This document shows, in pieces, positions 8,946-37,650 of a stretch of DNA of 41,177 nt. The position numbers and the translations under genes were made by a program. Source of the stretch: Lentisphaerota bacterium (lineage in GTDB: Bacteria > Verrucomicrobiota > Lentisphaeria > Victivallales > Victivallaceae); the NCBI GenBank assembly GCA_015061625.1, contig SUWG01000024.1:1-41177 (forward strand). Direction: 5' to 3'. The notes under the pieces were generated by a model that saw nothing but the letters and a program-made list of their open reading frames with translations, did not search any database and was not told where the DNA came from. How positions within the stretch are numbered: the stretch's first letter is position 1; each line of letters starts with the position of its first letter.

Positions 8946-10898
8946 TTACATGACATTTCTGCCGGAACGATCTCCGGCGGGGGCAGGCTGGGCGGCATCC
9001 ATTGAATTCACGCCGCTGTGGTCACTGCCGGAATCTCCGGAAGGAACTGATGCTTCTGTACTGACTCCGGAATCGGATGTGTCTTCGGATGATGATTCAG
9101 ATGAGATGTCGCCGCCGCTGGCGGAAAAATCGACCTGATATCCGGAGCCGGATGTGTCACTGGATGAAGGTTCGTCACTTTCCATGTATTGAAAAATCAC
9201 ATAGAAAACTATCACCACCGGCAGAATTATGATCAGTAACGCCAGAAATGCTTTTTTATAGTTGTGTACCGGCACTGACGGCAATGCCTGATGATTGATT
9301 TCCCGCAGGAGCATTTCCGCCTGATTGATCAACTGATTGCCGGTTTCTATAAAGTAAGAGACATTTTCATTAGAAAGCACATTGCTGCCGCGCAACATTT
9401 GTGAGCCATTTTCCCAGCAACCTTGCAACTGCAGGATGAAATCCGGATGATATTGCTGGATGAAGCGGTTGGCAATATATTTATCCAGAAGTGTGCACAT
9501 GGAAGCGATTTCGGAACGGGCTCCGGCATCTTGGACTACCAGTTGTGCATCGGGGATCTTTATGCCGGGAACTTTGGGGGTATCATCATGCTCCCAAAGC
9601 GGTTTATGTACTTTGCGGGGTGTTTTTTCCGATTTCTTTTGCAGTTTCTGCAGAAAACTTTTTTCCCAATCTGCGCTTTCTTCCTGATTTTGCTGGATGA
9701 AATTCTGTTGGGAATCAGCGGCTTGATCGAGGATATCGGCCAATTCGCTGTCGGCGAAGCGGCGGGCGAAAATGAACTCCTGCAACTGGGTCAGATTGGA
9801 AATCTGTGCCAGAGATGCGGCATTGCTGATCTCCTGTTTGGCGAGGAGCAAATAGTAATATCCCCAGGCGTTTTCCGGTTCATGATCGAGCAGTTTTTTG
9901 CAGTATTCCCGTGCTTTTTTGAATGATCCGCTCTCAATGAGCAGTTGTATCCTGCGCTGAAGTAATTCACCCTGATCATCATCATCGTCGTCACCATCAT
10001 TTCTGCGGCTGAACATTTTTTCGATGACGTGAAAAATATCCTGCATTGAACCGATCTTGCTCATATCCTGTGCCTGAAACATCGATAAGGCCTCCGGAAT
10101 ATCGTAAGCATCCATATCTTTATAACAGGGGATAAGCAGTTTGGAGCGGTCATTTTTCATCAATTCCAGAAATCTGCTCCATTCGTTGCGCACCCATACG
10201 GCATCGAAATATTCTTTTTTTGAACCGACCACCAGCATTACTTTGGCAGAATTCAACGCCGCAAAAATGTATGGCTCATATTGCTGACCGAGTTTGCTTT
10301 CCAGAGTGATGCGGGCAAAGAAAACCTTGTATCCGGCATCGGTCAACTGGTAATAGATCTCCTGTGCAGTCACGGAATCCTGGGTGCGTTCACCGTTATC
10401 ATCATTTTCTTTATAGCAGATAAAGATATCAAACGGCTCTTCTGTATTGGAGATCGCCAGGATATCCCGCTGGATTCCGGCGATCCGTTTGGCTTCGGCT
10501 TCATAAAGAGCTTTTTCGTCACTTCCGGCCAGCGCGATGGTTTTAAGATAATCCGGAGCGGCTGAAATCGACTCATACTGCACCCGGTGGCAGGTCGGTA
10601 TGCGTTCATGAGTTACGGGGTCTTCCACATATTCTATGCCGAATTTGGATAGAAGCAATCCCCAATGTGATTCCGCATCATCGGGATTGATTTCCACGAT
10701 CTTTTCATAAGCGGTAACGGCTTTGTCATATTCGCCGGTCATCCGGAAGTGTTCTGCGCGGTTGTAAAGATTTTCCAATTCTCCACTGGAAACTTTGGGA
10801 AATGTAGTTAAAGTGCCGCAATACGGACACTCCCCGGAGAGGATCCCATCCGGCAGATTCAACTTGCCGCCGCACATTTTGCATTGTATTTTAGCCAT
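8946..10898 (-). CDS. Zinc-ribbon/TPR/TIR membrane protein
   Basis: This 650-residue protein opens with a four-cysteine zinc ribbon (CKMC at 6-9, CPYC at 24-27) and a TPR-like pair (about 43-80). A TIR domain follows at about 154-295 (FDIFICYKE, VFFARITLES, VWVRNEW); Glu239 in WVRNEW is at the catalytic position of NADase-type TIRs. Then come an Asp-rich linker (302-308), a second helical-repeat segment (310-350), a single membrane span (about 549-571) and a Ser/Gly/Asp-rich tail. TIR proteins of this zinc-ribbon type are widespread in gut bacteria but have no established role. Its first ~290 residues are very similar to the protein at 35030-37612. It is the last gene of a long operon, 39 bp after the GH106-like gene. 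The start has GGGAAAA upstream. Confidence 0.82.
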   Translation of the reverse strand: MAKIQCKMCGGKLNLPDGILSGECPYCGTLTTFPKVSSGELENLYNRAEHFRMTGEYDKAVTAYEKIVEINPDDAESHWGLLLSKFGIEYVEDPVTHERIPTCHRVQYESISAAPDYLKTIALAGSDEKALYEAEAKRIAGIQRDILAISNTEEPFDIFICYKENDDNGERTQDSVTAQEIYYQLTDAGYKVFFARITLESKLGQQYEPYIFAALNSAKVMLVVGSKKEYFDAVWVRNEWSRFLELMKNDRSKLLIPCYKDMDAYDIPEALSMFQAQDMSKIGSMQDIFHVIEKMFSRRNDGDDDDDDQGELLQRRIQLLIESGSFKKAREYCKKLLDHEPENAWGYYYLLLAKQEISNAASLAQISNLTQLQEFIFARRFADSELADILDQAADSQQNFIQQNQEESADWEKSFLQKLQKKSEKTPRKVHKPLWEHDDTPKVPGIKIPDAQLVVQDAGARSEIASMCTLLDKYIANRFIQQYHPDFILQLQGCWENGSQMLRGSNVLSNENVSYFIETGNQLINQAEMLLREINHQALPSVPVHNYKKAFLALLIIILPVVIVFYVIFQYMESDEPSSSDTSGSGYQVDFSASGGDISSESSSEDTSDSGVSTEASVPSGDSGSDHSGVNSMDAAQPAPAGDRSGRNVM

Positions 10899-34930: not shown

Positions 34931-35029
34931 GTATCACATGGTGAAAAATTTCAACTGCATATTTTGGGGTAATGTCCTGAATTTTGTGAAACTGGTATAT
35001 TTTTCAACTCAAGGAGATGTGACAGCCAA

Positions 35030-37612
35030 TCATTGAACTTCGACCAGGGCCAAGCGGAAGCCGACGTAGCTGGCCCCATTCGCCGGGTCGTAGCTGCCCC
35101 GGTCCGCCGAACGGCAGTCCCGCGCGGCGCAGTACCAACTGCCGCCCCGTAAGACACGGCTGCTGTAACTGTCATAATAATCCAGACACCATTCCCCTAC
35201 ATTACCATGCATATCATACAAGCCGAAATTATTCCGGTAGCCAAGCGAACCGACTTCAACAGTACTCCGACGATACACTCCTTTATTTGCTCCGCCATAC
35301 GGCCAGTTACCATCAAAATTCATTTTGGAAACATCTGATTGATTCCCGTAAGAAAAAGGTGTATCCGTACCGGCACGACAGGCATATTCCCACTGCGCTT
35401 CGGTCGGCAAAGTGAACTTCCAATTTTCCGGCAGCCAACCTTCCCGGTGTCCTGTTGCGGTCAATGTTTCGCAAAATTGCATTGCATCATCCCAACTGAC
35501 TTGCTCCACCGGGAGGTGCGGACCTTTGAAATATGACGGATCATTCCCCATTACCGCCTGCCATTGTGCCTGGGTCACCTCATATTTGCCTAAAAAGAAG
35601 TCTTTGGTCAAAGTTACCCGGTGTTGGATTTCACCATAAAACCGCCCGGCTTCAGCGCCATCAGACCGCCTTCGCCGCCGGGGGCGGTGTTGGACTTCAT
35701 CATTATCCCGCCCGTCTTCAGTTGCCGGACTGCCCATCATAAATTCACCTTTGGGAATTCGCACCAACTCAAGCGTAACATTGCCCGGAAGCCTGGCTGT
35801 AAAAGTCGAAGTGGTTTGCAAATTTCTTGCAACTTCCTGTTGTTGCCTTTGCCTTTCCGCTTCTTGTTGTCTTTGTCTCTCTGCTTCCGCTTCCAGCCTT
35901 TGTCTCTCCGCTTCTGCTTCCAGCCTTTGTCTCTCTGCTTCCTGCTGTATTTTTTGTCTTGCTTCTGCTTCTATTCTTACTTGTTCTACTGCTTTTGCTT
36001 CCTGGCGTTTTTTTACTTCATAACAGATTGCTACCCCAAAGGCAACCAAGAGAATTATTATAACCAACGACCTTATAAATTTTCGTTTTTTGATTTTCTT
36101 TTTTACCATACCTTCAAGAGTTACAATATCCGGCAGGGAATTTATTAATGCTTCCGATACGGTTTGTACCGGAGAAACGGTGTTTTTATTAAGCCAATTA
36201 TCTGACTCCAACAAACGTGTTTCACTTTTTTTACAATCGGTGAGTTTATGAATGATACCGTTTTTATTGTTCAATGATTTATAAGCATTGATATAGCGAT
36301 TTAAAAGTTCCCAACGTTGCGTGGTTTCATTACGCAGTCTTAAATCTTCAGCTTTTCTGCGTGCTTCTTCCTCCAGCCGCCTTTGCTCTTCCTCTGCTCT
36401 GCGGTGTATTTTGTCTGTGATTCCGGTTAAAGTTAAAGTCGCCGTCAAAGCATTATCCGCAAATCTTTGAGCCAGTTGAAATGTCTTCTGTTGATCGATT
36501 CCGGCAATATCGACCAGTAACTTTTCATCATTGACTTGGTTTTCTGCCATCAAGCGGTAAAAATATGCCCAGCCGTTTTCCGGATTGATATCCAGCAATT
36601 TTTCACAATATTCTTTGGCTGAATCAAAATCTGCAGTTTCCAGAAAAAGTTTGGCTTTCTGTAAAAACGGGTGATCTTTGCTCTTCACATCGCCGCCGCC
36701 AGCCGATGCCGGAGCAGTTTTATCCATCACCTTTTTTATGCCGTGGAGCAAATCCTGAATAAAGCCGATCTTACCCATATCCTGCGCCTGAAACATCGAC
36801 AATGCTTCGGGAATATCGTAAGCATCCATGTCTTTGTAACACGGAATGAGCAATTTGGAGCGGTCTTTTTTCATCAAAGCAAGAAAACGGCTCCACTCAT
36901 TGCGTACCCAGACGGCATCAAAATATTCTTTCTGCGAACCGATGACCAGCATTACTTTAGCGGAATTGAGGGCGGCAAAAATGTACGGCTCATATTGCTG
37001 ACCGAGTTTGCTTTCAAGGGTGATCCTTGAGAAAAACACCTTATATCCGGCATTGGTCAGTTGATAATAGATTTCCTGCGCCGTAACTGAATCTTTGGTG
37101 CGTTTACCAAAGTTGTCACTCTCTTTGTAACAGATAAAGATATCAAACGGCTGTTCATTATTGGAAATGCTCAAAATATCCCGCTGGATTTCGGCGATCC
37201 GTTTGGCTTCGGCTTCATAGATGCCTTTTTCATAACTTCCGGCTTTTTCCAGAGCGTTCAGATAATCGGCATCAGCCAAAATCGACTCATAATGCACCCG
37301 GTGACAGGTGGGAATACGCTCGTGGCTTACCGGGTCTTCCACATATTCGATACCGAATTTGGAAATGACCAATCCCCAATATGCTTCGGCATCATCCGGA
37401 TTGACTTCCACGATCTTTTCATAAGCGGAAACCGCTTTATCATACTCATTGATTCTGCGGAAGTGTTCGGCCCGGTTGTAGAGATTTTCCAGTTCTTCAC
37501 TGGAAACTTTGGGGAAGGTGGTCAAGGTGCCGCAATATGGACACTCCCCGGAATACATCCCTTCCGGCAGTTCGATCGTGCCGCCGCACATTTTGCATTG
37601 TATTTTAGCCAT
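35030..37612 (-). CDS. Zinc-ribbon/TPR/TIR protein fused to an FGE/SUMF1 (C-type-lectin-like) domain
   Basis: An 860-residue protein with these parts in order. A zinc ribbon (CKMC 6-9, CPYC 24-27) and a TPR pair (43-80) come first, then a TIR domain (about 154-295; WVRNEW with Glu239 at the NADase catalytic position). A helical segment, a charged coiled coil (404-430), a membrane span (about 513-530) and a Gln/Glu/Arg coiled coil with repeated RQRLEAEAE units (536-595) follow. A formylglycine-generating-enzyme-like domain fills 608-858 (MMGSPA, GKYEVTQAQW, PTEAQWEYACRAG, MHGNVGEW, RGGSWYC, GFRLAL). The SUMF1 fold is a common ligand-binding scaffold, so the likely plan is an extracytoplasmic sensor coupled through the membrane to TIR. 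A 22-codon in-frame duplication lies at about residues 632-668. The last ~36 codons look like a DGR variable region. The ATG at 37612 follows GGAGAGAG. Confidence 0.87.
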   Translation of the reverse strand: MAKIQCKMCGGTIELPEGMYSGECPYCGTLTTFPKVSSEELENLYNRAEHFRRINEYDKAVSAYEKIVEVNPDDAEAYWGLVISKFGIEYVEDPVSHERIPTCHRVHYESILADADYLNALEKAGSYEKGIYEAEAKRIAEIQRDILSISNNEQPFDIFICYKESDNFGKRTKDSVTAQEIYYQLTNAGYKVFFSRITLESKLGQQYEPYIFAALNSAKVMLVIGSQKEYFDAVWVRNEWSRFLALMKKDRSKLLIPCYKDMDAYDIPEALSMFQAQDMGKIGFIQDLLHGIKKVMDKTAPASAGGGDVKSKDHPFLQKAKLFLETADFDSAKEYCEKLLDINPENGWAYFYRLMAENQVNDEKLLVDIAGIDQQKTFQLAQRFADNALTATLTLTGITDKIHRRAEEEQRRLEEEARRKAEDLRLRNETTQRWELLNRYINAYKSLNNKNGIIHKLTDCKKSETRLLESDNWLNKNTVSPVQTVSEALINSLPDIVTLEGMVKKKIKKRKFIRSLVIIILLVAFGVAICYEVKKRQEAKAVEQVRIEAEARQKIQQEAERQRLEAEAERQRLEAEAERQRQQEAERQRQQQEVARNLQTTSTFTARLPGNVTLELVRIPKGEFMMGSPATEDGRDNDEVQHRPRRRRRSDGAEAGRFYGEIQHRVTLTKDFFLGKYEVTQAQWQAVMGNDPSYFKGPHLPVEQVSWDDAMQFCETLTATGHREGWLPENWKFTLPTEAQWEYACRAGTDTPFSYGNQSDVSKMNFDGNWPYGGANKGVYRRSTVEVGSLGYRNNFGLYDMHGNVGEWCLDYYDSYSSRVLRGGSWYCAARDCRSADRGSYDPANGASYVGFRLALVEVQ
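35043..35149 (-). other. Candidate diversity-generating-retroelement variable region (VR)
   Basis: Codons 822-857 of the TIR-SUMF1 gene are 74% GC (80 of 108 bases counted by hand), far above the flanking gene. Twelve consecutive surface-type sites (Y827, C828, A829, D832, D837, G839, S840, Y841, D842, A847, S848, Y849) are all NNC codons, each reachable from AAC by changing only adenines. The conserved scaffold residues between them use codons without exchangeable adenines (CGG, GGC, CCG, TCG, GCG). The position at the extreme 3' end of an FGE/C-type-lectin-like gene, ending in GFR, is where DGR variable regions lie. No template repeat or reverse transcriptase is visible here. Confidence 0.6.
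35619..35721. repeat. 66-bp in-frame imperfect duplication within the SUMF1 domain
   Basis: A 37-nt block beginning CGGTGTTGGA and ending CTTCAG occurs at 35619-35655 and again, with several mismatches, at 35685-35721. The period is 66 bp (22 codons). It repeats an (E)VQHR/EIQHR element and places an Arg-rich, GC-rich linker (PRRRRRSDGA) between the copies. The frame is kept. Confidence 0.8.
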
Positions 37613-37650
37613 AACTCTCTCCGGAACAAACATAATATAATCATTTGACT

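Follow-up and report, generated by a model that had tools for sequence, protein, structure and literature searches.

How does a bacterial protein with a TIR domain come to end in a segment that looks as though it had been copied from a template and rewritten on the way? The question is raised by a gene at positions 35030-37633 (reverse strand) of a 41,177-nucleotide stretch of DNA from a Lentisphaerota bacterium (GenBank assembly GCA_015061625.1, contig SUWG01000024.1). Within the 2.7-Mb assembly, which has 44 contigs and is 90.9% complete (genome G000 in our comparisons), this stretch, hereafter the window, is contig C18. The gene encodes a TIR-FGE protein of 867 aa from the ATG at 37633, or of 860 aa if the ATG at 37612 is used. 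A first-pass annotation, which counted codons from the latter (its codon n is n+7 here and its V850 our V857), had proposed that the segment at 35043-35149 is the variable region (VR) of a diversity-generating retroelement (DGR) target on a membrane TIR protein. Judged by sequence comparison, it is very probable that this segment is a DGR VR in an FGE domain like that of TvpA from Treponema denticola, the gene being probably an orphan target or one that is served remotely. The proposal held for the VR on a TvpA-like FGE domain; the reverse transcriptase (RT) and template repeat (TR) that would belong with it did not turn up in the assembled genome.

Third-base conservation in the variable region

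When VRs are copied from a template, their third bases stay alike while the remainder of the gene drifts. As VR we took the 35 codons R826-R860 (RVLRGGSW...VGFR; 35054-35158, reverse strand), a block that stops seven codons short of the stop codon, that is, at the 3' end of the gene. Compared with genome G038, the window gene differs at 7 of 35 third bases in the VR and at 86 of 156 in the body (P = 1.3e-4), and P lies below 0.02 in six of the 16 comparisons made with the window gene (G021a, G021b, G027a, G009, G007 and G038). The set consisted of 16 of the 20 matches in the genus (without G002:C10, G018:C86, G033:C21 and G007:C204) plus G038; G070, a genome of the same order, is absent from this VR-versus-body test, its row being an RT-TR frame for which a body is meaningless. 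The agreement also exceeds what composition would give. When third bases are shuffled within the VR, the window shows 7, 8 and 11 mismatches to the VRs of G038, G070 and G129, where 18.8, 18.7 and 21.0 are expected; the composition-controlled P of 2e-4 for all three is the floor of 5000 shuffles. Homologues that lack the DGR-like pattern (G027b, G013, G014b and G001) show 21-23 mismatches for 21.5-23.2 expected, thus no excess match, and G014 has 15 for 23.4 (P = 0.002 by shuffling; VR versus body P = 0.075). Third-base agreement is the strongest evidence for the putative template origin of the window segment, and together with the comparisons below it supports a process of template-like copying that has varied A-type sites of a TvpA-like domain.

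Templates and machinery in related genomes

Among 137 genomes of the order, six matched a TR pattern; none of the 34 genus genomes did. The TR match has a VR nearby in G129 (same family), G070 (same order) and G060; there is no pair in G044, in G068 or on the second G060 contig (C130), and the sixth genome, G097, was left out of the pair scan. The TRs of these relatives read RGGSWNNNA.NC..ANRNNN.PDNRNNN.GFRLAL, which is the window scaffold with runs of Asn in place of the window's Y, C, A, D, G and S. Over the 35-codon block, the G129 VR departs from its own TR at 16 of 30 adenines and at 0 of 75 other bases, and the G070 VR at 20 of 36 and 0 of 69; the G038 VR departs from the TR of G070 at 21 of 36 and 0 of 69. 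G060 has a TR, a VR and an RT, and a 75-nt segment there contains 17 mismatches at A and one elsewhere. Set against the TRs of these relatives, the window VR differs at 20 of 30 (G129) and 24 of 36 (G070) A sites. A TR matching the window VR would read about RVLRGGSWNNNA(K/R)NCRSANRNNNNP...NNN(V/I)GFRLALVEVQ.

In G070, HRDC, RT, TR and VR occur together and the TR lies within the RT frame. The RTs of G060 and G070 bear the motifs GNLVSQ/GNLTSQ and have an HRDC open reading frame upstream, HRDC beside RT being observed in these two genomes only. HRDC, RT and TR are the components named for the T. denticola DGR (PMC4891356; here and below, what we say of cited papers refers to their available parts). 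In G129 the TR lies in frame at the end of an apparently cut RT frame, identified by eye from its likeness to that of G070, and the VR is 605 bp off. The contigs that bear these TRs are 4,894 bp (G129), 3,386 bp (G070) and 25,757 bp (G060) long. A DGR-RT profile (E<=1e-25) matched 21 of the 137 order genomes, and many of the weaker ones among these matches are taken for other RTs. In a test for TR and VR differing at A only, pairs were present in four of 78 loci (L058, L102, L107 and L122), three of them, not L107, with a DGR RT motif; none was present in the Lentisphaeria/Victivallales/Lentisphaerae loci L059, L065 and L070, by ungapped matching inside each retrieved stretch, which can miss pairs. 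A further scan of four loci gave the pairs of G129, G070 and G060 and none in L216, and a scan of nine loci, again with L216, gave pairs in G041 and G088 and none in the other seven, including L163-L165 and L220 (G044, G060:C130, G068). As a side observation, since the TR in G070 forms the in-frame end of the RT reading frame (L157:436-1614), residues 343-385 of the 392 encoded by that frame score as a Pfam FGE tail.

A paralogue in the same genome

The genome has four FGE matches, and one of them, on contig C2, has nearly the same FGE domain as the window gene. It belongs to a reading frame of 337 aa, in which an internal Met is followed by a stretch resembling a signal peptide (by eye); the segment corresponding to the window VR lies in C2:50660-50789. 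Within the 35-codon block the two genes differ at 19 of 30 TR-A sites and at 6 of 75 others (Fisher P = 1.2e-8), the A sites being those of the G129 TR as a proxy for the TR that is absent from the assembly. By codon position the differences number 12, 10 and 3 of 35 (positions 1, 2 and 3), and third bases of the gene bodies differ at 18 of 178, or at 25 of 198 over a longer stretch. The variable sites of the VR are thus near-randomised between two genes whose third bases have otherwise diverged by about 10%. A control pair without the pattern, the congener homologues L138 and L147, differs at 3 of 30 A sites and 13 of 75 others.

These A-site counts come from 28 sources, seven of which lacked the pattern R..RGG.W...GFR and were dropped (L136, L143, L145, L150, L151, L152 and L018; the L151 gene was extracted separately as G021b). 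Blocks of other length (L154 and L149) were skipped, and L019 duplicates L135. Congeners were sorted into those with and without a DGR-like pattern after the results, and G129, G070 and G038 were set beforehand by their TR match.

Composition of the segment and its downstream flank

The composition that had drawn attention to the segment was confirmed: 35043-35149 has 73.8% GC, whereas the gene as a whole has 46.0% and the window 49.2%; only four of 41,070 overlapping 107-nt windows along the sequence are as GC-rich as this segment. All twelve NNC codons listed by the first-pass annotation are present (834 TAC, 835 TGC, 836 GCC, 839 GAC, 844 GAC, 846 GGC, 847 AGC, 848 TAC, 849 GAC, 854 GCC, 855 AGC and 856 TAC). 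For comparison, the FGE body upstream of the segment has 83 codons for these residue types (Y, C, A, D, G, S and N), of which 22% have C as third base. The accompanying argument that each codon can be reached from AAC is correct for the codons listed and is also true of every NNC codon, hence suggestive only. We therefore rejected the NNC codons as proof of a DGR origin; by themselves they prove little, so that the comparisons with paralogue and TRs bear the weight. Variable codons outside the NNC class also differ between the window and C2 copies (R838 CGG, N852 AAT and G853 GGG).

Downstream of the VR lies a short flank, GTTCAATGATTGGCTGTCACATCTCCTTGAG (35008-35038, reverse strand, stop codon inside), which is common to the C2 paralogue and the G129 VR. 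Past the stop codon, TTCAATGATTGG...TCCTTGAG is common to the window and to the G129 VR, which belongs to a DGR target of the same family, and C2 has nearly the same sequence. The window flank scores 18 against the G129 VR flank (shuffle maximum 11.5; 0 of 500 shuffles reach the score) and 18.5 against the reverse complement of the G129 TR flank (L161, G129:C147; shuffle maximum 10.5). Such an inverted relation between VR flank and TR flank recurs in G070 (L166, G070:C126; score 26, 0 of 300 shuffles). It is not clear in G129 itself (9.5, 40 of 300, with a flank that started later than in the window test), in G060 (9, 29 of 300, the same-strand score being higher at 12, 0 of 300) or in the remaining six of the nine TR-VR pairs tested. 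Downstream of the VR, G129, G070 and G060 have 11, 16 and 8 bases that are complementary to the end of their TR, lengths that 5, 0 and 9 of 300 controls reach; in the other six of nine pairs the complementarity covers 4 to 6 bases, the rows of L058 and L107 being uninformative because their ends were placed too early. Since the TR end is complementary to this site in three DGRs of the order, the 3' end of the TR RNA may pair with the target strand 3' of the VR and could thereby find its targets. The BPP-1 DGR needs short inverted repeats downstream of its VR (PMC3240598).

Evidence that weighs against a DGR origin

Several observations, in this and the following paragraphs, weigh against a DGR origin of the segment. 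Ten of the 16 window comparisons show no significant VR effect at third bases (C2, G027b, G027c, G013, G014, G018, G001, G014b, G013b and G032). For C2 (P = 0.54), whose body has hardly diverged from that of the window gene, VR third bases differ at 3 of 35, the same rate as in the body, and there is no sign of homogenisation since divergence. We rejected third-base conservation between window and C2 as proof of a DGR, the gene body being equally conserved; that their VR third bases drifted as much as the bodies suggests that retrohoming here was not recent. The window also differs from the TRs of relatives at non-A sites (9 of 69 in G070 and 14 of 75 in G129), so that neither is the TR of the window VR. 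Moreover, L138 and L140, without the pattern, also vary at TR-A sites (20 of 30 versus 27 of 75, P = 0.004), and a small P for A sites against the relatives' TRs is obtained with most congener homologues, whether or not they have the pattern. TR-A sites coincide with loops that are variable in pattern-free homologues too, so that counting A sites by itself makes the case look stronger than it is. Finally, the hairpin predicted for the flank is weak (-0.5 kcal/mol, DNA parameters).

It is possible that these genes are ordinary FGE paralogues with diversifying selection on their ligand-binding loops and no retroelement ever involved. The variable loops of homologues without the pattern fit this explanation, as does a genome with neither a DGR-type RT nor a TR, and the low third-base change between window and C2 is expected anyway, given their low body divergence. 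However, first and second positions of the VR changed at 22 of 70 sites while third bases of the body changed at 10%, and several codons changed at both bases. The VR third bases, moreover, match those of true DGR VRs beyond composition, in G038 far beyond a saturated body, and the two targets of G021 differ at 105 of 158 third bases in the body and at 6 of 35 in the VR (P = 8.8e-8). We thus regard selection without a retroelement as highly improbable.

What, then, became of the machinery? The suggestion that a repeat of about 110 bp, reading AAC at the variable codons, would be found beside a DGR RT was not borne out in the assembly, in which neither turned up. A DNA search with the 156-base VR region gave no further convincing match there, and a pattern with constant bases fixed and variable bases free (<=3 mismatches) finds only the window and C2 VRs. 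Nine weak DNA matches to the VR (E 0.37-4.45) were noted in the genome, of which those on C12 and C25 were inspected and rejected as other sequence. Among the 34 genus genomes, the pattern with 2 mismatches found no TR and the DGR-RT profile at E<=1e-25 matched none. The sole RVT_1 match of the genome itself is retron-like; its motifs (LPQGAVTSP/YADD) and its PADLOC type (retron type III-A) led us to reject it as a DGR RT. Seven of 33 congeners have an RVT_1 match, the six full-length RTs lacking the DGR ..SQ motif; their best types are retron III-A (G001 and G007), UG26-type (G024 and G027) and CRISPR/group-II-like (G006 and G015), in a PADLOC library that may contain no DGR model and with the G017 RT fragment left out. 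Viral contigs held no TR by one exact pattern, and no viral relative was among the 62 stretches retrieved by two peptide patterns; 22 phage records contain distant FGE homologues of less than 60% identity. Thus the genome, at 90.9% completeness, shows no DGR-type RT and no TR, and an excess of variation at these sites is nevertheless seen in the paralogue and in congeners. Separately, the retron type III-A/Ec107-like RT locus (L001, G000:C5:34431-38012) has a DUF6530 protein upstream.

Lost, hidden or acting from elsewhere

Five genomes of the genus (G000, G021, G027, G009 and G007) carry such VRs with no cassette visible, and neither a TR nor a DGR-type RT was found in the assemblies of the latter four. 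The VR could be a live DGR target whose RT-TR cassette is unassembled or lies on a mobile or unbinned element acting in trans. The incomplete assembly in 44 contigs leaves room for this, and two of the three TR contigs of relatives are short. Remote targets have been described in cyanobacteria (PMC7517822) and in T. denticola (PMC4891356), and the VR third bases of the G021 and G027 targets, far more alike than their bodies, would suggest later activity in the genus. However, the probability that chance incompleteness hides a cassette in all five genomes is about 4e-5 (the product of 1 - completeness over the five), so that loss, a mobile cassette or a systematic gap in assembly is needed. The third bases of the window's own VR are not homogenised, and the exact pattern found no TR in viral contigs. 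A live target is therefore possible, at a good deal less than an even chance.

The diversified FGE module might also have been acquired or shuffled from a DGR-bearing genome, by gene conversion or horizontal transfer, and have drifted since. Modules do move: the TIR module occurs in four genomic copies and the FGE module also on a non-TIR protein, and flank and VR scaffold match a DGR target of the same family. However, the fraction of third bases that differ between the FGE body of the window gene and those of congeners and G038 is 0.55-0.68, so that no recent transfer from these is visible, and each copy in the genome bears its own VR variant. Such an acquisition seems unlikely to us.

We lean towards a cassette that was lost or rarely acts over one that is currently active. 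A TR in which most variable codons read AAC would have undergone error-prone reverse transcription, and the copy would then have retrohomed to the 3' end of the gene, directly ahead of the short conserved flank. In this genome the target would now be an orphan, its cassette (HRDC protein, RT and TR in relatives) lost or rarely acting. It is rather doubtful that the outward face of a membrane TIR receptor is still being rewritten by a cassette outside the binned chromosome, mobile or unassembled, with the 3' end of the TR RNA perhaps pairing with the flank downstream of the VR. If it were, these bacteria would possess something like a somatically varied Toll-like receptor. Five genomes of one genus in which no cassette is visible make loss, concealment and action in trans directly testable.

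Architecture of the protein and its known relatives

From N- to C-terminus the window protein consists of a zinc-ribbon-like part, TPR, TIR, TPR, a single hydrophobic stretch, a linker rich in Gln, Glu and Arg, and the FGE domain. The zinc ribbon was seen by eye and has a weak LysW-type match at aa 10-37, under the model's cut-off. The TIR_2 domain (36776-37141, reverse strand; aa 165-286; PF13676, E = 8.2e-13) contains a W-V-R-N-E stretch that presumably resembles the SARM1 stretch bearing the NADase Glu; a phmmer search of the PDB with the TIR segment gave no match at E<=0.01. The hydrophobic stretch FIRSLVIIILLVAFGVAIC (36020-36079, reverse strand; aa ~519-538) is likely a single membrane helix. 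Since it is preceded by the basic run KKKIKKRK, the protein probably has its TIR part inside the cell and its FGE part outside it (positive-inside rule, applied by eye). The FGE-sulfatase domain, of the C-type-lectin fold, spans 35048-35629 (reverse strand; aa 669-862; PF03781), and its best match both in sequence (E = 2.9e-32) and in fold is TvpA, a DGR variable protein. The protein is most probably a receptor in the membrane whose TIR domain is intracellular and whose sequence-diversified binding face is turned outward; we infer this outward face, TIR signalling and a role in defence or self/non-self recognition.

TvpA shares with the window protein the FGE fold, the scaffold RVLRGGSW...GFRLA and the C-terminal variable segment, whereas the window FGE domain is joined to a TIR module through the probable membrane helix. 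The T. denticola DGR comprises HRDC, RT and TR and has FGE targets, some of them remote; predicted lipoproteins make up 62% of targets in that study, and where isolates have targets but no RT and TR, these targets are interpreted as likely leftovers (PMC4891356). In Thiohalocapsa PB-PSB1, C-type-lectin variable domains are likewise fused to domains of conflict systems, the target of its DGR 2 having CHAT and TIR domains, and degenerate loci without machinery occur; in contrast to the present case, the available part of that paper describes no TIR-FGE receptor with a VR in a machinery-free genome (PMC10907252). Cyanobacterial DGR proteins similarly include remote VRs located in C-type-lectin proteins that also bear signalling domains, TIR-like ones being among the less common, but those targets are assigned to DGRs within the same genome (PMC7517822). 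Among the titles listed in a search of the DGR, TIR and FGE literature, none concerned a TIR-FGE receptor of this kind. TIR domains in DGR targets and orphan targets are already known. With the window gene, the DGR targets linked to conflict systems come to include a TIR protein whose variable face is of the TvpA type; third-base conservation can reveal such targets when template and RT are absent from an assembly.

Congener targets and TIR modules elsewhere

DGR-like VRs on congener FGE domains were observed in G021 (L197 and L202), G027 (L198), G009 (L200) and G007 (L201). Their hosts include protein kinases (G027a and G021b) and a zinc-ribbon protein (G009); the FGE proteins of G007 and G021a have no second Pfam match, the G021a frame being cut at a contig end. 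None of these five proteins has a TIR match.

The zinc-ribbon-TPR-TIR module is present in four copies in the genome, the other three being 82-96% identical to that of the window gene. One lies in the window itself, in a gene at 8946-10898 (reverse strand) that encodes 650 aa and is 82% identical to the N-terminal module of the window gene, with a different C-terminus and no FGE match. The other copies are at G000:C20:30467-31360 and 51986-52873. One copy has an internal stop, and the C-termini compared, those of two of the three, both differ from that of the window gene. In other genomes, the module was seen in three copies in G012 and in one each in G008 and G028.

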